From Caldicellulosiruptor saccharolyticus DSM 8903 (lineage in GTDB: Bacteria > Bacillota > Thermoanaerobacteria > Caldicellulosiruptorales > Caldicellulosiruptoraceae), in assembly GCF_000016545.1 (NCBI RefSeq), contig NC_009437.1, positions 2,816,501 to 2,880,500 of the forward strand: a stretch of DNA of 64,000 nt, read 5' to 3'. A program made the position numbers and the translations under genes. The notes under the pieces were generated by a model. That model saw only the letters and a list, made by a program, of their open reading frames with translations, did no database searches and was not told the DNA's origin. This document shows, piece by piece, positions 1 through 10,046 of the stretch. Positions within the stretch are counted from its first letter, which is position 1, and every line of letters begins with the position of its first letter.

Positions 1-531
1 TGCTTCCTGTTCTTTTGCAATTTCAACAACTACATGAACATAGTATTTGCCTTTATCTGCATGATAAAGCAGCTCTGCATACTTGGGTTTTATACCAATT
101 CTTACATTGTCTATAACTATCCTCTCTGCACCTTTCATGTTTACCAGAATTAGATTATCCCCTTCCAGCTTTATTGCCGAGTCTTTAAAACACACCTTGT
201 TGTACTTCTTGTTCCTGTATGGCAGTCTAATCTTTGAAGTATTTTTATTTTTCTTTTTTGCCTTTTTGATTTTTCTCAAAGTGGCAGTATAGTTTGTCCA
301 TGCCTGCTGGTATGCCGCCTGCTTGCTCTGACTGTGCAATATAAAACTCTTCTGGTGTATCCACCACTCCATGTACCTGTAGAATGTCTTTTGCTTTATC
401 CTAAGTCCTTTCCTGTTTATCTTCTTAAGAAAACTTACAGCTTTGGAGTAGATTTTTCCTGATTGCATTGAAAGCTCTCTTGCTAAATTCTGATATTCAT
501 TGGGAATTGGCAGAATATATGTCTTATCCAT
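1..531 (-). CDS. tnpB: TnpB RNA-guided nuclease, IS200/IS605 accessory protein (C-terminus outside window)
   Basis: The reading frame opens at the ATG complementary to 529-531 and is still open at base 1. The product begins MDKTYILPIPNEYQN and continues with the Lys/Arg/aromatic-rich N-terminal region and the YHADKGKYYVHVVVE block typical of TnpB. In this family TnpB is an omega-RNA-guided DNA endonuclease that helps retain the IS. The RuvC catalytic residues and zinc finger lie outside the window, so activity cannot be judged. The start overlaps the end of tnpA by 8 nt, suggesting coupled translation. Confidence 0.85.
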   Translation of the reverse strand, partial: MDKTYILPIPNEYQNLARELSMQSGKIYSKAVSFLKKINRKGLRIKQKTFYRYMEWWIHQKSFILHSQSKQAAYQQAWTNYTATLRKIKKAKKKNKNTSKIRLPYRNKKYNKVCFKDSAIKLEGDNLILVNMKGAERIVIDNVRIGIKPKYAELLYHADKGKYYVHVVVEIAKEQEA

Positions 532-934
532 CTTCTTCTACCTTCTTCCATTGTGCTTCTATATACTTTTTTATCGTTTCAGAAGACACATTGCCTGCTG
601 TTGCAACGAAGTATGCCCTTGTCCAGACTGAACCTTTCTGCTTATACTGAGGGAACTTCTGCCCTATCTTTCTGCCAGTAGCACCTTTTATCACATTGAT
701 AAGTTGGCTTGGTGAATACCTTGGAAGTGCTGAGATAAACAAATGGATATGATCAGGCATTATCTCAAGTGCTAAAATGTCAAATTTATATGCTTTAGAC
801 AGTTCTTTTATTGTGTCTTCGACTGTCTTTTTTACTTCAGGGTCTTTTAAAAAGTCCTTACGATATTTTGGTATCCAAATAAAGTGGTAGTTGATTAAAA
901 ATTTAGCATGTCGTGTTGACTTGTAGGTATTCAT
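524..934 (-). CDS. tnpA: IS200/IS605 TnpA, HUH transposase
   Basis: A 136-residue protein of normal TnpA length. The HUH metal-binding motif is visible as H62-I-H64 inside DHIHLF, and the catalytic tyrosine is most likely Y124 in KKYIEAQ. TnpA excises and inserts single-stranded IS DNA by recognising the end hairpins and a short target such as TTAC. A near-consensus promoter lies just upstream (971-999). The gene looks intact, so the element may be active. Confidence 0.92.
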   Translation of the reverse strand: MNTYKSTRHAKFLINYHFIWIPKYRKDFLKDPEVKKTVEDTIKELSKAYKFDILALEIMPDHIHLFISALPRYSPSQLINVIKGATGRKIGQKFPQYKQKGSVWTRAYFVATAGNVSSETIKKYIEAQWKKVEEDG

Positions 935-1775: not shown

Positions 1776-3215
1776 CTAACATATTTGAATCCCCAAAGAA
1801 CCCAAAACTTCGCCAATACTCTCCATGCCACCAGCTTTTCGCAAAGCTTCTTTATAGAGCTTCTCCATACTCACATACACCTTCTTGTCCCTTTCCTCAT
1901 GTTGAACTTTTTCTATTTTCTTTGCTACTGGCAGGGAAAGTGGATTTAGATTTTTGAGCTTGTTGACAATCTTTGCAAACACAAGCTCTTTTGCCTTCCT
2001 CAAAAGCGTGATAAGATACGCAGTCTTGTTCTGTACCTTGACCTTAAAATATGGCAGCATTAATAGCTCAATTGCAGCTTTTATCTGGTACGTTCTTATA
2101 GCAATGTTAATCAGTGCGTTCTTCAAAAAGGTAGGGATATTGTATGAATCGCAGAGCTCAGAAAGCTTCTCCACAGCTGCGATGTTTTTTGTGGATAAGT
2201 TCTTGTACTGCTTTTTGTAGTTTGTGAAGTCCAGAATTCTGCAGGGCTTTTTGTCTGCCTTTTTAGATTCAGTATCTGCCGGGTTGAAGCTTGTCCTGTA
2301 TGTAAAAAGCACACTCATGGCATAGTTCTCCTTGCTGCGTACATTTTCTTTGAAAAATTTGCTGCCAAGAAGCTCTATTATTCTGTCGGCTTCCTCTTCG
2401 CTTTTCCTTGCCTTTATCAGAATTTTGTTTGTTGCAGAGGACGAAAAGGCAAACTTCTGGCATAAGTTTTCTATGTCTTCTATCTTTACTGTATGGGCCA
2501 GTGAGAGTGTTTCTGTTCCTTTTAGCTTAGAATAATCGTAGTCTTCTGGATGGCTCACAAGAGCAAGCAAAATACCATCCTTCGAGCGCACCTTCTCCTG
2601 CCAGTAGAAAGAACCAATAAGTTTTTTAACCTGCTCAAGTAGCCTTGAGTCCCCAGTGCAGGCTTTTTTCACCTTCCAGAGGGTATAGCCTGATACATTT
2701 GATTCTTTAAGTTTTCTAATAACTGATTTTATTTCATTTTTATGGTAATTAGAACCTGAAAGGTTCTCTCTATATTTTTTAATATCTTTAATATATTTAT
2801 TATTACGGTTTTGGGCAAATGCTTGGGAAATCTGCGTTTGCGGCTTTTTCCAATTTTGATTTTGGGGAAATACAGTAATTGTGCGGAATTTTGCCTTCTT
2901 GGCGTTTCCAGTTGTTTTTGAGCACACTACCCCTGTACAACACTCTGCATTTTGTGGTATAATATAAATGCAGAGTGTTTTTTTGTTATTGTAGTGTTTG
3001 CACCGCTTTTCTATCACCCCCATTTTCTGAAGGAATGATAGAATGCGGTCTATTTTCTTGAGAGGTAGCTTCACGAGCTCTCCCAGTGTGGTTCTTGGCG
3101 CAACCATGAAAACCTTGCCGTCAATAACCATTTGTGGGAGAGCTCTTGTTCTATAGAGCCTCTCAAGAGCGCCAAGAACCATCTTGACAGCAAGGTTCTT
3201 GTTTGTTAACTTCAT
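1776..3215 (-). CDS. ICE protein with N-terminal winged helix and three internal repeats, possible replication factor
   Basis: A 479-residue soluble protein; AAGGAGGT at 3223-3230 supports the start. Residues 35-70 look like a winged helix (TTLGELVKLPLKKIDRILSF). The rest contains three diverged copies of a block of about 50 residues: around 175-235 (ending FYWQEKVRSKDG), 270-320 (FFKENVRSKENY) and 370-420 (YFKVKVQNKTAY). Between the N-domain and the repeats is a Lys/Asn-rich linker. I do not recognise the family with certainty. Winged helix plus repeats on a mobile element suggests DNA binding, perhaps replication initiation, but that is inference. A terminator lies immediately upstream (3258-3289). 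Confidence 0.7.
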   Translation of the reverse strand: MKLTNKNLAVKMVLGALERLYRTRALPQMVIDGKVFMVAPRTTLGELVKLPLKKIDRILSFLQKMGVIEKRCKHYNNKKTLCIYIIPQNAECCTGVVCSKTTGNAKKAKFRTITVFPQNQNWKKPQTQISQAFAQNRNNKYIKDIKKYRENLSGSNYHKNEIKSVIRKLKESNVSGYTLWKVKKACTGDSRLLEQVKKLIGSFYWQEKVRSKDGILLALVSHPEDYDYSKLKGTETLSLAHTVKIEDIENLCQKFAFSSSATNKILIKARKSEEEADRIIELLGSKFFKENVRSKENYAMSVLFTYRTSFNPADTESKKADKKPCRILDFTNYKKQYKNLSTKNIAAVEKLSELCDSYNIPTFLKNALINIAIRTYQIKAAIELLMLPYFKVKVQNKTAYLITLLRKAKELVFAKIVNKLKNLNPLSLPVAKKIEKVQHEERDKKVYVSMEKLYKEALRKAGGMESIGEVLGSLGIQIC

Positions 3216-3305: not shown

Positions 3306-4082
3306 TTATATCCTTGGCTCGCTTATCACTCTCACAATATCTCCCCACATCTTTTTCTGCTGCTTGTCGATGTCTTTTATAAGCACAACCACTGTTGAGC
3401 CAATCACAGGTGTTTTTAAACCCATTGGTGGACAGAGAACCTGCCGACCGTCCTCTATAAGGTCGATAAATATTCCAAGGTTTGCAACTGCTACAACTTT
3501 ACCAACGTATTGTTCTCCCACTTTGTATCTGTCCGGGTCTTTGTCCCATGGTGTCATAGCTGCTTCTTTTATGCTTATCTGAGGTGGGTTTTTGGATATG
3601 ACCTTTGCTTTTACGCTGTCGCCAACTTTGAATCTTTCTCTCATGTCGTGTATCCATTTGTAGTCAACATCCTTTGCAGTAAGCCCAAATTCATACCCGA
3701 AAGCATCCACATACACATTTTTGGGCGACACGCCTATTACTCTGCCGTTTATAATCTGCCCTTCTTTTACGTTGTTTTCAAATTCGATTCTTCTCAGCTG
3801 TTTTGCAATTTTGCGGGAAATGAACACGTTGTCTTTTTGAATGTCTGTTACAACAAACTCAATTGTTGCACCAAGCAGCGCTCCGATCGGGTCATTGATT
3901 GACTCTGTTGACAGGTCAACCTCTTCTGGTGGCATAAGACATCTTGTGCCCTGATACAGTACAACTCCGTATGTTTTGTCGCCCACCTTCTTTTTACCTG
4001 TTACAGTTCCTGTTAAGATAGTTTTGTAATTGTAGGACTTTTGAAGAAGACGTCTTACTTCATCTTTTTTTGTCTGCTTCAT
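3306..4082 (-). CDS. S1-type RNA-binding domain protein
   Basis: A 258-residue protein with three tandem OB/S1-like repeats: about 17-95 (TILTGTVTGKKKVGDKTYGVVL), 105-175 (EGQIINGRVIGVSPKNVYVDA) and 185-258 (GEQYVGKVVAVANLGIFIDL). The third is the most canonical S1 motif. S1 domains bind single-stranded RNA. The protein is shorter than ribosomal protein S1 and lies downstream of virD4 in the conjugation block, so it is more likely an element-encoded post-transcriptional regulator than a ribosomal protein. The role is inferred. It ends just before the strong terminator at 3258-3289. Confidence 0.8.
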   Translation of the reverse strand: MKQTKKDEVRRLLQKSYNYKTILTGTVTGKKKVGDKTYGVVLYQGTRCLMPPEEVDLSTESINDPIGALLGATIEFVVTDIQKDNVFISRKIAKQLRRIEFENNVKEGQIINGRVIGVSPKNVYVDAFGYEFGLTAKDVDYKWIHDMRERFKVGDSVKAKVISKNPPQISIKEAAMTPWDKDPDRYKVGEQYVGKVVAVANLGIFIDLIEDGRQVLCPPMGLKTPVIGSTVVVLIKDIDKQQKKMWGDIVRVISEPRI

Positions 4083-4123: not shown

Positions 4124-6010
4124 CTACCAGAGCTCACTGTCTTCTTCTTGTGCTTCTTCTGGCAGGGCTTTTGCTTCTTGAGCTGCTACAGCTTGTTCTT
4201 TTTCTTTCTGCTCTTTTGCTTGAGCTTCACAAGAAAACTCCTGTTGCAGCTTTTGCTGCTGGTAATAGCTTTGTTCAGGTGTTTGTGAGCTTGAAAGCTC
4301 CTTCTGTTTGTAATTTGCAAGGCTTATAAACTCAAGCTCTTTTGCCTGTTTCATCCTGTCAAAGAACACCTTTTCGGTGATAAGCGGGTTTTTGCCTCTT
4401 AAAAGAACTATGTTCTTGTCTGCGTCAAACTTTTTAACCTCGTCCGGGTTTAGCAGCAGTCTTTTCCCTACTGATTGTGTTATTCTCTCTGTTTCAAAGA
4501 TTGCGTTGAAATCACCCGGGTGTGATGTGCTTCTTGTCTGTATACTTTTGATTCCAAGCAAGGTAGATACATACTCTGCGGTGTCAGGGTCGTTCACGCC
4601 AAGACACAAAAATGTATCGCAGTTGCCTATTATCTCTTTCCACTGTCCGCCGGGGTATCTGTCCTCAAGCTGTGGAATGCTTTGAATGACTATCTGGCAG
4701 TGCAGGTTGCGTTTTCGTATTGTTGAGATTTTCTTTGTAAAATCAGGTATTTCGCCAATATTGCAGAACTCGTCTAAAAGAAAGTATACATGTCTGTTTC
4801 GTATATCTTTATTATCTGTTGTGTCATGCAGCTTGACAAGCTTAATAAAAAGGAAGCTGAAGAAAAGCGAGCTCATAAAGTTGTATGCCGAGTGCTGGTC
4901 CGGGATTATGCAAAAATACGCTGTTTTCTGAAGCTTTGGAGCAAGCAGGTCTATTTCGCTGTATGATGTAATCCTGCGCACAAGCTTATTTTGAAATAGC
5001 TGAAGTCTGGTTCCAAGTCCCATTACAACACCTGATTTGACTTTTTCGTTTACCTGAGAGTACAAGTTGTATGCCATTTTGGCAGCTTTATCGTCGGGTA
5101 GATTTTCAAACAGCTTTGCAATCATAGCAGGGTCTTTTGATGCAAGCAGGTCGTACACCTTTGCCATGTTCTGTTTTTCTACTGGGACGTAACCATCTTT
5201 GTCTTTGACATAGAGAACCAGAGCTTTGAGAAGGTTTAGTTCTGCCCTGTCCCAGAAAGGATCTCCTGATTTTCTTCCTGCCTCTGTGTTTTTTATTACG
5301 ATATCTGCAAAAACCTGCGCGTCCTCTTCGTTTTCAATGCTGTCAAGCAGATTCCATGGGTCAGAAAGAGTGAAGTCAACAAGGTTGAGTGCTTTTACAA
5401 AGTAACCTTTCTTTAGAAGATACTTGTATGTGTGTTCAAGTATTTCGCCTGATGGGTCTGTGATTACCATACTGTGTCCTGCTTCAGCTAAAGCTATTAC
5501 GTTTGGTATTATGAACGTTCTTGATTTGCCTGCGCCTGTCGCACCAAGTACCATTACATGCTTATTGAATCTTGAGCTAAACGGCAATGTTACAAGCTCG
5601 TTTGAGATTTTGCCAAGGATAAGCCCTGGCTTATTAAAGCCTAAAACCTTTCTTGCCTCTTTTTCTGTCATCCAGTCAGATGTTCCGTATGTTCCCCTTG
5701 GGTCTTTTGCTGCCTGATTGCCGAACAGTAGTTTCATTCTTTCTTTGTATGGAAGTAACATAAGAATTCCTGCAATTAGAATAAAGGTTGTGAACCCGAG
5801 CCACGCTTTTTGGATGTCAGGGTTTGCAAAGACATTTTTCAAAGCCTTTATAGGGTCTGTTTGTATTTTGATTTGCTGTGCTTTTTCCGGTGAGAAGAAA
5901 AAGCTTTCCTGGTTCATTTTTAAAAAGTCTGTTAGCATTCCTATGATGTAGCCTGTGAGAAGATAAAACAAAGCTACTGCTGCCACAAAAGCAGGGAGCT
6001 TCTTTTTCAT
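4124..6010 (-). CDS. virD4: VirD4/TraG-type IV coupling protein ATPase
   Basis: A 628-residue protein with two N-terminal membrane segments (about 7-28 and 70-88) followed by a cytoplasmic ATPase. Walker A is GATGAGKS at 156-163 and Walker B LLDEF at about 411-415. The C-terminal 70 residues are Gln/Glu-rich and probably disordered. Coupling proteins link the relaxosome to the secretion channel and drive DNA export. The start overlaps the upstream gene by 4 nt, so the two are probably co-translated. No frameshift is seen. Confidence 0.93.
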   Translation of the reverse strand: MKKKLPAFVAAVALFYLLTGYIIGMLTDFLKMNQESFFFSPEKAQQIKIQTDPIKALKNVFANPDIQKAWLGFTTFILIAGILMLLPYKERMKLLFGNQAAKDPRGTYGTSDWMTEKEARKVLGFNKPGLILGKISNELVTLPFSSRFNKHVMVLGATGAGKSRTFIIPNVIALAEAGHSMVITDPSGEILEHTYKYLLKKGYFVKALNLVDFTLSDPWNLLDSIENEEDAQVFADIVIKNTEAGRKSGDPFWDRAELNLLKALVLYVKDKDGYVPVEKQNMAKVYDLLASKDPAMIAKLFENLPDDKAAKMAYNLYSQVNEKVKSGVVMGLGTRLQLFQNKLVRRITSYSEIDLLAPKLQKTAYFCIIPDQHSAYNFMSSLFFSFLFIKLVKLHDTTDNKDIRNRHVYFLLDEFCNIGEIPDFTKKISTIRKRNLHCQIVIQSIPQLEDRYPGGQWKEIIGNCDTFLCLGVNDPDTAEYVSTLLGIKSIQTRSTSHPGDFNAIFETERITQSVGKRLLLNPDEVKKFDADKNIVLLRGKNPLITEKVFFDRMKQAKELEFISLANYKQKELSSSQTPEQSYYQQQKLQQEFSCEAQAKEQKEKEQAVAAQEAKALPEEAQEEDSELW

Positions 6011-6954
6011 CTTGCTTCACCATCCTTTGAATTTGTATATCCTACTGCTTTAAAAAACTCAGAAAGCTCAACAGTTGTTATTTTAGCTTCAACTCCTTTG
6101 TATCTGTCTTCAAGCCCTCTGAGTGTGATTACCTCTATTGCCTTGTCTGTTACCGCCTTTAGGGCTTTGAGTCTTCTTTTTGCTGCTATGTCACCTGCGC
6201 CTATGTGAATTATTCTATCTTCTGTTTCAAAATCACCATGTGCATTTTTTACTGTAATCTGTGTTTTTACTACTGGCAGGGAACTTAAAAGCTTTTCTTT
6301 GTAGTCGGGTATGCCAATTATACAGTCGAGGATCCTAAGCCCTGCCTGTGTGTATGAGAGAACTGATATTTCTTTTGCAGGTATGTTTTGCAATCTTTCT
6401 TCTGTAGCTAAAAACTCCTGAAGCCTTTCTTTTGAATCGCACAGAACTACAAACTTTTCTACTCCAAAGGTTGTAGCTTCTTTGATGTCGGTAAAATACT
6501 CTGAAAGCGTCTTTTGTGATGTTTCCTTTGAGATTCTGTATATGCCATAGCCTCTTGCAACACCAAGTATCTTGTTCTTGTCGCTCATCTCTGTGCTGTC
6601 GCTTCTGGTTTCTCTTTTAAAATCCCAGCAGCTTAAAAAGTGTGGCAGAATGTATTCTCTTGAGCCAATCTCGAATACTTTTTGCCATCGCCACATAACT
6701 TCTTCTGCTGTCATTTTGGCAAGTGGTTCAAAAACTACTCCTCTTTCCTCTTCTAAGTATGCTATAGCTGCCTCACCAAGGGTGAGAATGTAATGGTTCA
6801 CTTTCTGAATGTAGTTTCTACTAATCAATCTCTCTACACGTTTATATGCTGGCCATTTACCACCGTAAACTTGCTTGGCTACATCGTATGGAACCATTTT
6901 GAATTTTACAATCATGTCAAAGAGCTTGTTGTCCTTTTCGTTTATCTGCAGCAT
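6007..6954 (-). CDS. Winged-helix protein resembling the replication-relaxation family
   Basis: A 315-residue protein. Residues 1-75 form a winged helix (KLFDMIVKFKMVPYDVAKQVY) ending with an ILTLGEAAIAYLEE segment, the pattern of the plasmid replication-relaxation family. The C-terminal part is alpha/beta with no obvious catalytic motif. Its 4-nt overlap with virD4 suggests a relaxosome accessory role, perhaps loading the coupling protein at oriT. The family assignment is from pattern recognition only. It has no visible metal-binding His cluster or catalytic Tyr block, so it is not a recognisable relaxase. Confidence 0.6.
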   Translation of the reverse strand: MLQINEKDNKLFDMIVKFKMVPYDVAKQVYGGKWPAYKRVERLISRNYIQKVNHYILTLGEAAIAYLEEERGVVFEPLAKMTAEEVMWRWQKVFEIGSREYILPHFLSCWDFKRETRSDSTEMSDKNKILGVARGYGIYRISKETSQKTLSEYFTDIKEATTFGVEKFVVLCDSKERLQEFLATEERLQNIPAKEISVLSYTQAGLRILDCIIGIPDYKEKLLSSLPVVKTQITVKNAHGDFETEDRIIHIGAGDIAAKRRLKALKAVTDKAIEVITLRGLEDRYKGVEAKITTVELSEFFKAVGYTNSKDGEAR

Positions 6955-6981: not shown

Positions 6982-7203
6982 TTATAGACTGCTTTGATAA
7001 AATACGTTCCCATTTCTCTTTGCGTACTTGATTTTGCCATTTTCGAACACAAGTTCAGTTTCTGCTGCTTTTGCTATTTTGCTGATGATTTGTTGTATTT
7101 CTGCGTCGTCTACAGGTGAATTTTTTAAAGTTATTGTGAAAAAAGCAAGAAGTAGGTTTATCTCTTCTTCTTCAAAGGTCATTGTTATCTTTTTTGATTT
7201 CAT
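6982..7203 (-). CDS. Small ICE protein of unknown function
   Basis: A 73-residue, acidic, soluble protein starting MKSKKITMTFEEEEINLLL. The start at 7203 is set by AGGAGGC about 7 nt upstream; the upstream in-frame start lacks a ribosome site. The N-terminus is strand-forming and followed by helices, which would suit a small DNA-binding or antirestriction-type protein, but I do not recognise the family. It is the first gene downstream of the hairpin array at 7231-7712. Confidence 0.65.
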   Translation of the reverse strand: MKSKKITMTFEEEEINLLLAFFTITLKNSPVDDAEIQQIISKIAKAAETELVFENGKIKYAKRNGNVFYQSSL

Positions 7204-7230: not shown

Positions 7231-7712
7231 GCTACTGCTAAACAAAAAGCAGTAGCTTTTTATTGCTACTGCTTACAAGAAAAAGCTGTTTTGCAGCAGC
7301 TAAAGTGCTGCTGCTTTGAGTGTTGCTACTTTTGCCCAAGCTGACTTTATCAGCTTGGGCTTGCTACTGGTTTTATCATTGGCTTGCGGTTTTGCAGCAA
7401 AAAGGCAGTAGCTAAAGTGCTGCTACCTTTGAGCTTGTGAAAAAAGCGCTACTTTTGCCGAAGCTGATAATGTCAGCTTCGGCTTGCTACTGGAAATTTA
7501 ATCGCTACTGGTTAACTTTGGTTCTGCCAGTTTGCAGTAGTCTACCAAGACTTGTTTGCTGATGCTAACTCATTCCAAAGTGGTGAGTTGCTACTTTCGC
7601 ACGCAAACAGAATGTGTTTGCGTGCCTGCCATAATTTTTGTTTTGTATACCCTTGAAGTTTAGATTTTATCTGCTTTTTGGGACTTGAGGGTATACTAAA
7701 CCCTATGCTACT
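7231..7712 (-). repeat. Array of AGTAGC iterons and matched hairpins in a 640-bp non-coding gap
   Basis: There is no convincing gene from 7204 to 7845. Read on +, GCTACT (AGTAGC on minus) begins at 7231, 7265, 7325, 7363, 7448, 7486, 7504, 7590 and 7707. Three hairpins share one design, an 11-bp perfect stem with a 5-nt loop: 7334-7360, 7457-7483 and 7599-7625. Each is preceded by GCTACTTT, and the first two are followed by TTGCTACTGG. The first two stems differ by a compensated C-G to G-C swap. Three further hairpins lie at 7231-7256, 7293-7314 and 7404-7427. The array may be an origin of replication or transfer, or a structured RNA. Confidence 0.75.
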
Positions 7713-7845: not shown

Positions 7846-8475
7846 CTATTTTATTCTTTTTCTGTTACTTTTTTCTTGGTAATTAGGGGGTGTTCTTGAG
7901 GCAATATCAGGGTCGGTTTGTGGTGTATATGATGTCACCTTGATTACTGTTTTTGGAAACACATTTGTTGATGTGTGCCCTTCCAGTGTAATTTTCACAC
8001 GTGACATAGTATCGTTTGGTATTACCCCGCAGGTGACAAGTTGATTGATTATTGTCTTGACCATTCTGTTGTCCGTATCAGCTTTCAAAAAAGGACCTAC
8101 TGGCACATAGAATTCAAAATGAATATGAGCCTTTTCGAATTTTGGCTTTTCGGAAAGTGAATTTATGGCGTTTGTAACCAGGTCTTTCCACTTGAATGTA
8201 TCCTCCTGGGTATTTACCTTATACACAGGTGGAACATCAAAGATAAGAATTTTTAAAACTCCATCTTTGTACTCAGCTTCAAACTGGTCAATAATTAAGC
8301 TGCTATCAACATCAATTCCGTACTGTCTTATATAGTCGTTATCAAACATCTTCAAGAAATTTTGCCAGTGAAAGAGGTTTTGTCTGAGCTTGAAAACCCA
8401 GTACTCTGTCTCTCTTAAATATTTTTCAGCTTCATCCAAAAGATACCTGATTTCACCTGCCAGAGGATTGTTCAT
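7846..8475 (-). CDS. RusA-like Holliday-junction resolvase (divergent)
   Basis: The start at 8475 (MNNPLAGEIRYL) follows AGGAGGTG at 8483-8490, giving 209 residues. The first 60 residues are helical. The C-terminal half holds a block resembling RusA: KADTDNRMVKTI followed by GVIPNDTMSRV, equivalent to the D-x-D-N...K and D-D/N-D elements that bind magnesium. RusA enzymes resolve Holliday junctions and are common on phages and ICEs. The family is assigned from this motif only; the N-terminal extension is unusual. It is transcribed toward the hairpin array, whose cruciforms would be plausible substrates. Confidence 0.55.
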   Translation of the reverse strand: MNNPLAGEIRYLLDEAEKYLRETEYWVFKLRQNLFHWQNFLKMFDNDYIRQYGIDVDSSLIIDQFEAEYKDGVLKILIFDVPPVYKVNTQEDTFKWKDLVTNAINSLSEKPKFEKAHIHFEFYVPVGPFLKADTDNRMVKTIINQLVTCGVIPNDTMSRVKITLEGHTSTNVFPKTVIKVTSYTPQTDPDIASRTPPNYQEKSNRKRIK

Positions 8476-8535
8476 CCAAATCACACCTCCTGAAAAAAAA
8501 TGAAGGCAGGGAATTTGAATATTCCCTGCCATTTG

Positions 8536-8781
8536 CTACAGTTTTGAAAAAGCGTCAAGAAATGATTTGACTGACTTTTTATCAAGCCCAAGTCCTGCTT
8601 GCTGCTGTGGTGGGCTGATTTCTTGCATGCTTTCGAGTTTGATTGCCCCTGACAGAACTGCTTTTGTTGCATAGTATAGCTCAAGGGCATCAAGGATAAC
8701 TTGTTTTTTATCTTTTTCGTCCCAGAAAGGGTGTCCTTCTGGAATCCTCACAGCGTATACGTTGTTTTTATTCTTTTTCAT
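8536..8781 (-). CDS. Small ParR-like DNA-binding adaptor candidate
   Basis: An 81-residue protein starting MKKNKNNVYAVRIPEGHPF. A short N-terminal strand followed by helices (KKQVILDALELYYATKAV) is compatible with a ribbon-helix-helix fold. The C-terminus has a Pro/Gln linker and a final amphipathic helix (SVKSFLDAFSKL), as in ParR proteins whose tail binds the ParM filament. It lies directly after the iteron cluster and downstream of parM on the same strand. The partition role is inferred from this arrangement; sequence similarity to known ParR is weak. Confidence 0.55.
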   Translation of the reverse strand: MKKNKNNVYAVRIPEGHPFWDEKDKKQVILDALELYYATKAVLSGAIKLESMQEISPPQQQAGLGLDKKSVKSFLDAFSKL

Positions 8782-8795
8782 AGCAAAACACACCC

Positions 8796-9098
8796 TGTAA
8801 ACAGGTTTTTCCCTTATTTTATCTTACTTTCACGGTAACAACAAGCCCATTTTGTAAACACAAGTGTAAACGGGTTTAGCCCTTGATTTTTCTGATTTTG
8901 CTTTGCAAATAGTAGCCATTTTGTTTACAACTGACCCCAAAAATCCCTCCAAAAAGCATAGTTTTGTTTACATTTCATGGGGTTAATGTTTCTCAATTTC
9001 AGATATTAAGCACATTTGAGGCGTTTACACCTGTGTTTACATTTTTGGTGTTCTGACAGCTCTAAACTCAGTTGTATCAAGCTTTTAGGCTGTTTACA
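8796..9098. repeat. TGTTTACA iteron cluster, probable parC centromere
   Basis: Eight copies of TGTTTACA or its complement TGTAAACA (six exact, two with one change) occupy 303 bp between the parM stop and the parR-like gene. They start at 8796, 8853 and 8865 (TGTAAAC orientation) and at 8922, 8965, 9022, 9034 and 9091 (GTTTACA orientation). A longer direct repeat is centred on the copies at 8796 and 8865 (TGTAAAC-r-GGTTT-nn-CCCTT). The last copy overlaps the parM stop codon. Iterons beside an actin-like partition gene are the expected form of a ParR-binding centromere. Confidence 0.75.
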
Positions 9099-10046
9099 AA
9101 CCAAGTGAAAGCAAAGCTAAATATCCTTTTGCATTGGCAAACTGAGAGTTTTCTACTATCTGAACATTACTAAACTCCTTTTGCAGGACAGAAGCAACTG
9201 TAAAAGCTCCTCCACCGGAGGCAAGTACTGCGTCAAATGTGTCAAAGCCACGTTGAAGTCTTCTTGAGATTGACTGAACTATGTCGTCTGCTATAGCCCT
9301 GAAAACTTCCTTTTTATGTGGTTCAATATCTATCTTTCTGCCACGAACGGATATATATGTGCGCTCATGAATGTCAAAAAGCAGGCTTGTGTCGTAGCTC
9401 ACACCATATTTTCTTTCAATCATCAAGCCAAGTCGTTCAACAGCCAGTGACATACCTTTGTCCACCGTAAAACACATGTCAAGAAGCGGGTTTATGTTTT
9501 TGCTTTTGATTTCAACTACAATTACGTCTGTTGTTCTAAATCCGACATCCAAAATACAGTATATTCCATCTTCTACTGGTGAGGTGATTGAAAAGAGTGC
9601 ACCAACACCCTGAGGGAACACTTCACACCTTGCAATGTGGTAGCTGTGTGCAACGCCATTTTTGTCAATGATTATCTCCTCTAAAAACTCAAAGTAGTCT
9701 TTTACCTTCTCTTTGAGTTTTGGATAAAGCATCAGTGGAAGACCAAGTCCAAGCTCCACTTCCCTGTCGCTTTCGAGTGCCATAAGTGCTGTCAGAACAA
9801 GCAATTTTGAAAACTCGCTGAAGAATCTTTCTTCAGAAAAGCTTGTTTCTGTTATTAAGCACTGTGTTGCTGCTTCCCCGACTGCATATGTGTTTGGTTC
9901 AAGTAGGTTACAAAGTAGTCATTTGTGGGTTTGAGTCCAATGTCTGTCATGAAAGTTTTGGAGACAGCAGACGGAAAAACAACCTCTTTGCCTTTTTCAT
10001 TCACTGCCTTTGTGAAACCAAAACCAACGTCAATACCACACCTCAT
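9094..10046 (-). pseudogene. parM: ParM-like plasmid-segregation actin, frameshifted
   Basis: From the ATG at 10046 the product begins MRCGIDVGFGFTKAVNE, the first phosphate-binding loop of actin-like ATPases. The frame shifts near 9899-9905, where YAVGEAATQC resumes one frame over, and then runs through LDVGFRTTDVIVVE (phosphate 2) and LASGGGAF (adenosine site) to the stop at 9094. Restoring one base would give about 317 residues, normal for ParM. ParM filaments push plasmid copies apart through ParR bound at parC. The frameshift is either a real lesion or an assembly indel. GGGAGTG precedes the start. Confidence 0.8.

Follow-up and report, generated by a model that had tools for sequence, protein, structure and literature searches.

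The window (the whole 64-kb stretch of DNA that was analysed) contains an ICE in which a noncoding array of repeats and hairpins separates a RusA-like gene from the genes for a 315-aa winged-helix protein and a coupling protein. The element also encodes a VirB4-type ATPase and a tyrosine integrase. A gene with an S1 RNA-binding domain (3306-4082, minus strand) is conserved in the ICE core of nine loci, and an IS200-type transposase-like ORF (524-934, minus strand) lies close to the ICE genes. In gene direction, the array runs from 7712 to 7231. The features of the locus are the following:

4124-6010, minus strand: gene for a type IV coupling protein (TraG/VirD4)
6007-6954, minus strand: gene for the 315-aa winged-helix protein, a distant Replic_Relax (MOBC) relative; 4-bp overlap with the coupling-protein gene
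6982-7203, minus strand: small gene without assigned function, present at four of the nine loci
7231-7712, minus strand: candidate oriT, a noncoding array of AGTAGC/CCAGTAGC repeats and hairpins, kept at nine loci
7231-7274, both strands: overlapping terminator-like hairpins made of AGTAGC and GCTACT
7293-7314, minus strand: self-complementary GCAGCAGC/GCTGCTGC hairpin
7334-7360, minus strand: hairpin 3, 11-bp stem, after CCAGTAGCAA
7363-7370, minus strand: third CCAGTAGC copy
7404-7427, minus strand: imperfect self-complementary AGTAGC-type hairpin, followed by a T-run
7457-7483, minus strand: hairpin 2, 11-bp stem, after CCAGTAGCAA
7486-7511, minus strand: direct pair CCAGTAGC-N10-CCAGTAGC, 88 nt from hairpin 1; candidate binding site of the relaxase
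7590-7598, minus strand: GAAAGTAGC at the 3' base of hairpin 1; AAGTAG in seven of nine loci, GCAGTAG in G001, AAAAGCAG in G010
7599-7625, minus strand: hairpin 1 (h1), 11-bp stem, loop CATTC
7640-7701, no strand assigned: inverted repeat with GTATAC sites, upstream of h1
7846-8475, minus strand: gene for a RusA-fold endonuclease

The three perfect hairpins, each with an 11-bp stem and a 5-nt loop, are packed into 292 bp and are each preceded on the plus strand by GCTACTTT; their design and coordinates are exactly those given in the initial annotation. Perfect stems of at least 11 bp with a short loop occur four times in the whole 64 kb, three of them being the array hairpins, and are absent from five dinucleotide shuffles of the 64 kb. 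GCTACT was likewise claimed to be enriched, and it is present nine times on the plus strand of 7231-7712 versus 0.6 expected (2000 dinucleotide shuffles, maximum 4), with two more copies on the minus strand; among hexamers of mixed composition, this cluster is the densest in the window. Both the array hairpins and the GCTACT count are far above chance. Extra hairpins built from AGTAGC and its complement (7231-7274, 7293-7314 and 7404-7427) are in some cases followed by T-runs, and those near the small gene look like terminators. A promoter scan of the region showed no excess. No conserved gene was found in the array when homologous loci were compared, and the internal ORFs differ between loci, which agrees with the earlier statement that no gene explains the array.

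Within the family, the array region is present at nine loci, which are spread over eight genomes. Relatives at the DNA level within the genus are a further copy elsewhere in the genome of the window (G000:C1:1566489-1566985) and the loci of G007 and G004; G012, a genome of a sister genus, gave a weak DNA match, and the loci of G001, G006, G008 and G010 were added via searches with the neighbouring proteins. The order in gene direction is the same in all nine: RusA-like gene, noncoding region, small gene (where present), 315-aa gene, coupling protein. Homologous ICEs, whose lack of the array would have spoken against the initial reading, thus retain it. No DNA relative of the array was found in plasmid and phage collections, and profile A1 (nine members) detected no relative in viral_contigs and genome_contigs, two collections without near genomes; the 63 matches of a DNA pattern in viral_contigs were judged to be chance. 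REP/IS200-type mobile hairpins, considered on account of the GTAG beside the hairpins, were rejected because the unit is found only in ICE loci. In addition, L038 (G008:C1, approximately 8400-9570) contains an isolated RusA-like gene that is accompanied by neither relaxase nor coupling-protein genes. About 16 [GC]CAGTAG repeats, all on one strand, come after it, and the hairpins are missing; the locus may be the remnant of an ICE whose array has expanded.

On the gene (minus) strand, h1 is the first hairpin after the RusA-like gene in all nine loci, where it has seven distinct and unrelated stem sequences. In the alignment of these stems, 97.4% of cells pair, and double-sided changes occur at nine of the 11 pairs. 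The covariation score is 0.835 versus 0.29 ± 0.06 for shuffled alignments; it is reached by none of 500 shuffles and lies above every slid register too. The compensatory exchange noticed in the initial annotation, which had suggested a covariance check, is therefore seen in much stronger form across loci. A few bases past the 3' foot of h1, GTAG is found in eight loci and GCAG in G010. The CCAGTAGC-type direct pair starts 85-92 nt from h1 in eight loci, and a shorter pair begins 94 nt from h1 in G008 (hairpin end 416, motif 510); in G012 the pair is degenerate (CCAGAAGC and CCAGTT). Within the 13 family genomes searched, the pair written CCAGTAGC is confined to array loci, and its CCAGCAGC version is found in a few other places too. 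More CCAGTAGC-type copies and two further 11-bp hairpins follow downstream in the window and its closest relatives. Upstream of h1, GTATAC is present in the window, G000b, G004, G007 and G010, and GATAGCGAA copies instead in G001, G006 and G012. Between loci, then, h1 varies in sequence but keeps both its shape and its spacing from the repeats, a pattern that speaks for DNA shape being what is recognised.

The model of the 315-aa protein (pLDDT 90) displays an N-terminal winged HTH, a feature of MOBC relaxases. Residues 1-74 align to MarR-type wHTH domains with a best Z of 9.8, and the fold search gave nothing clear beyond this domain. Pfam yielded no match for the window protein, and PF13814 was matched by none of the nine family members. 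The family profile aligns over 201 columns (E 1.7e-4) to a protein of G115 that passes PF13814 and whose gene also has a RusA-like gene directly upstream. Alignment A3, which includes the G115 protein, has relatives in about 15 further genera, and one of these relatives scores 33 bits for PF13814, above the cut-off. Profile comparison with the MOBC protein of pTEF1 alone was not significant. The link to PF13814 runs only through intermediates and we therefore term the 315-aa protein a distant relative and not a member. In the alignments, the Asp/Lys of a restriction-endonuclease-like site are partly kept and the acidic position is ambiguous; as judged from these sequences, the catalytic residues do not clearly appear to be of the PD-(D/E)XK type, which, like the missing Pfam match of the window protein, speaks against a relaxase function. 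Relaxases of the families PF03432 and PF02486, the two covered by this search, were not matched in 13 family genomes, with positive controls.

The product of the RusA-like gene was named as such in the initial annotation, and its model confirms this call, since E. coli RusA ranks first in the fold search (Z 9.2, rmsd 3.2, 107 of 109 residues aligned). Asp133, Asp135 and Asp155, in a DxDN...D arrangement, are invariant in 15 relatives and presumably equivalent to the catalytic residues of E. coli RusA. Pfam gave no match for the window protein, PF05866 included, and the relative in L112 reaches 17.8 bits, below the cut-off of 22.8; the protein is therefore called RusA-like by fold and not a Pfam member. 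It shares a common fold with the E. coli Holliday junction resolvase, but it has a long N-terminal helix and its gene is linked to conjugation genes.

About a dozen further genera share the order RusA-like gene, noncoding region, MOBC-like gene, and in at least five further genera the coupling-protein gene comes next. RusA-like profile matches are located just upstream in most A3 loci with a full-length protein, and matches were also obtained at loci outside the profile build (L118, 1e-33; L119, 6e-22; L121, 1e-17; L124, 4e-15; L120, 7e-12). Two of the more distant loci (G281 and G067) have clear perfect hairpins of 12-13 bp, and in the others the gap holds different short repeats without clear perfect hairpins. 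Thus, the hairpin design is a feature of the ICE family and not of the whole module. In L112 (G016), a 1-kb noncoding gap (2029-3075) separates the RusA-like and winged-helix genes and contains irregular short repeats on one strand (GGCAG, AAAAGC). A full-text literature search (RusA, relaxase, conjugative) revealed no paper on this gene order, as judged by title and abstract.

Taken together, the array is probably the oriT of this ICE family, with the 315-aa protein as its relaxase and a divergent relative of MOBC. This is likely because nine loci keep the array between the RusA-like gene and the genes for the 315-aa protein and the coupling protein. The covariation of h1, its near-constant distance to the repeats, the remote PF13814 homology and the lack of PF03432 and PF02486 matches in the family genomes point the same way. 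The array also has several features of an oriT: it is noncoding, adjoins relaxase-like and coupling-protein genes, and contains inverted repeats and repeats of the protein-binding type. The initial annotation had proposed a new type of replication or transfer origin, or a structured RNA; synteny with relaxase-like and coupling-protein genes and the constant spacing of hairpin and repeats best support a transfer origin, and the structured RNA is not favoured. Binding, nicking and transfer would then all take place at the candidate oriT. The wHTH domain of the 315-aa protein would bind the CCAGTAGC direct repeats, and h1, located about 88 bp away, would extrude on supercoiled DNA or form in single-stranded DNA, thereby exposing, at its GAAAGTAG foot, the region to be nicked; the cut strand would then be passed to the coupling protein that is encoded next. 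Against an oriT, three hairpins exceed what an oriT needs, and perfect hairpins do not appear in every distant relative of the module. In many conjugative elements a coupling protein is encoded but no relaxase has been recognised, and where transfer starts is not known. Here, candidates can be named for the oriT and the relaxase, together with a RusA-like nuclease as their companion, all of which recur together in about 12 further genera of the phylum.

The closest known counterpart is the oriT region of the MOBC plasmids pAD1 and pTEF1 (TraX, Replic_Relax), and the claim of a new type therefore holds only in part. These regions are likewise noncoding, lie near a wHTH relaxase gene and a coupling protein, and combine direct repeats with perfect inverted repeats. 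pTEF1, which is typed MOBC, encodes a 'replication-relaxation family protein' matching PF13814, and upstream of this relaxase gene it has a 24-nt unit that occurs five times, each copy shifted by 12 bp from the last, as well as perfect 25- and 18-nt inverted repeats. According to a review (PMC12857230), TraX of pAD1 combines a winged HTH with an active site resembling that of restriction endonucleases, and its binding site consists of five direct repeats located 70-120 bp from nic; the 85-94 nt measured here between repeats and hairpin would fit this distance if nic lay at the foot of h1. In contrast to pAD1 and pTEF1, the array has another repeat sequence and period, fixed short 11-bp hairpins instead of 25-nt arms, an adjoining RusA-like gene and a relaxase that is only remotely related. 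The oriT of ICESt3, which is processed by a MOBT relaxase, resembles the array in having an HTH-bound site away from a hairpin nic site (PMC9371924). It differs in that its relaxase is of the Rep_trans type, none of which was found here, and in that a hairpin of the same shape with another sequence is not bound there. The oriT of SGI1 is similarly adjoined by unusual mobilisation proteins (PMC9299015), but these include a tyrosine-recombinase-type protein, and SGI1 has an experimentally shown sRNA, whereas the array has no RNA signature.

Iteron-like repeats next to hairpins would also suit an origin at which the excised ICE replicates, either a vegetative oriV or a single-strand origin; the repeats would then bind an initiator, and synthesis would be primed or terminated at the hairpins. 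An actin-like gene (MreB-like/ALP domains) on the element suggests that it may replicate like a plasmid. Nevertheless, what accompanies the array in nine loci is the pair of relaxase-like and coupling-protein genes and not a replication gene, the module recurs with transfer-type genes in other genera, and the actin gene of G012 does not adjoin the array, so that such an origin seems unlikely.

It is possible that the RusA-like enzyme acts on the array hairpins. We consider it improbable, however, that it supplies or completes the transfer cut on hairpins extruded as cruciforms, with the winged-helix protein being only a binder. A conserved shape without a conserved sequence suits a structure-specific nuclease, the RusA-like gene adjoins the array in nine loci and also in other genera, its Asp residues are invariant, and the relaxase catalytic motif of the 315-aa protein is not clearly kept. 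A dimeric resolvase, in contrast, is expected to linearise DNA, RusA-like genes may serve recombination only, and distant relatives hold the RusA-like gene without perfect hairpins. Also rather doubtful is a two-part conjugation initiator widespread in Bacillota, in which a catalytically altered MOBC-like winged-helix protein would mark oriT and a structure-specific nuclease of the RusA family would act on the extruded hairpins.

There is similarly little likelihood that the array is transcribed into a structured RNA serving transfer or regulation, comparable to sgm-sRNA, which is encoded beside the SGI1 oriT (PMC9299015). The strong covariation of h1, the fold z of about -8.7 and the terminator-like hairpins are compatible with an RNA, as is a weak similarity to the Rfam Mahella-1 RNA (7315-7406, minus strand; 25.8 bits, E 0.004, below the gathering score). 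The z values are the same for the two RNA strands (-8.70 and -8.67; -8.77 as DNA), though, and the Rfam search at the array produced nothing at the gathering score. Moreover, the 20 A-type hairpins at the nine loci comprise 13 distinct stems with 139 distinct base pairs, all of which are Watson-Crick; none is G-U, whereas G-U pairs account for 9.6% when these regions are folded as background. The two tRNAs of the window have five G-U pairs of 28 and three of 23. The lack of G-U pairs and of a strand preference in folding makes a DNA hairpin or cruciform more likely than an RNA. Perfect palindromes can also arise from template switching in replication, and the related sequences are not independent; the evidence for a DNA hairpin is therefore short of proof. 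The Mahella-1 similarity is probably due to chance, as homologous loci do not share it; the RF03007 model had no match in 37 genomes, controls included, and a consensus pattern matched only scattered unrelated records.

Finally, a partition centromere for actin-based segregation genes is very improbable: an actin-like gene and a small gene in a ParR-like position are located upstream, but a separate gap with TTTGTAAACA-type repeats (8794-9093) lies between the actin-like and ParR-like genes and is itself a likely centromere, and in G012 the array is not beside these genes. The actin-like gene of the window (9094-10046, minus strand) is frameshifted into 236 and 63 aa, and an intact protein of 316 aa is encoded in the second copy of the same genome and in relatives.
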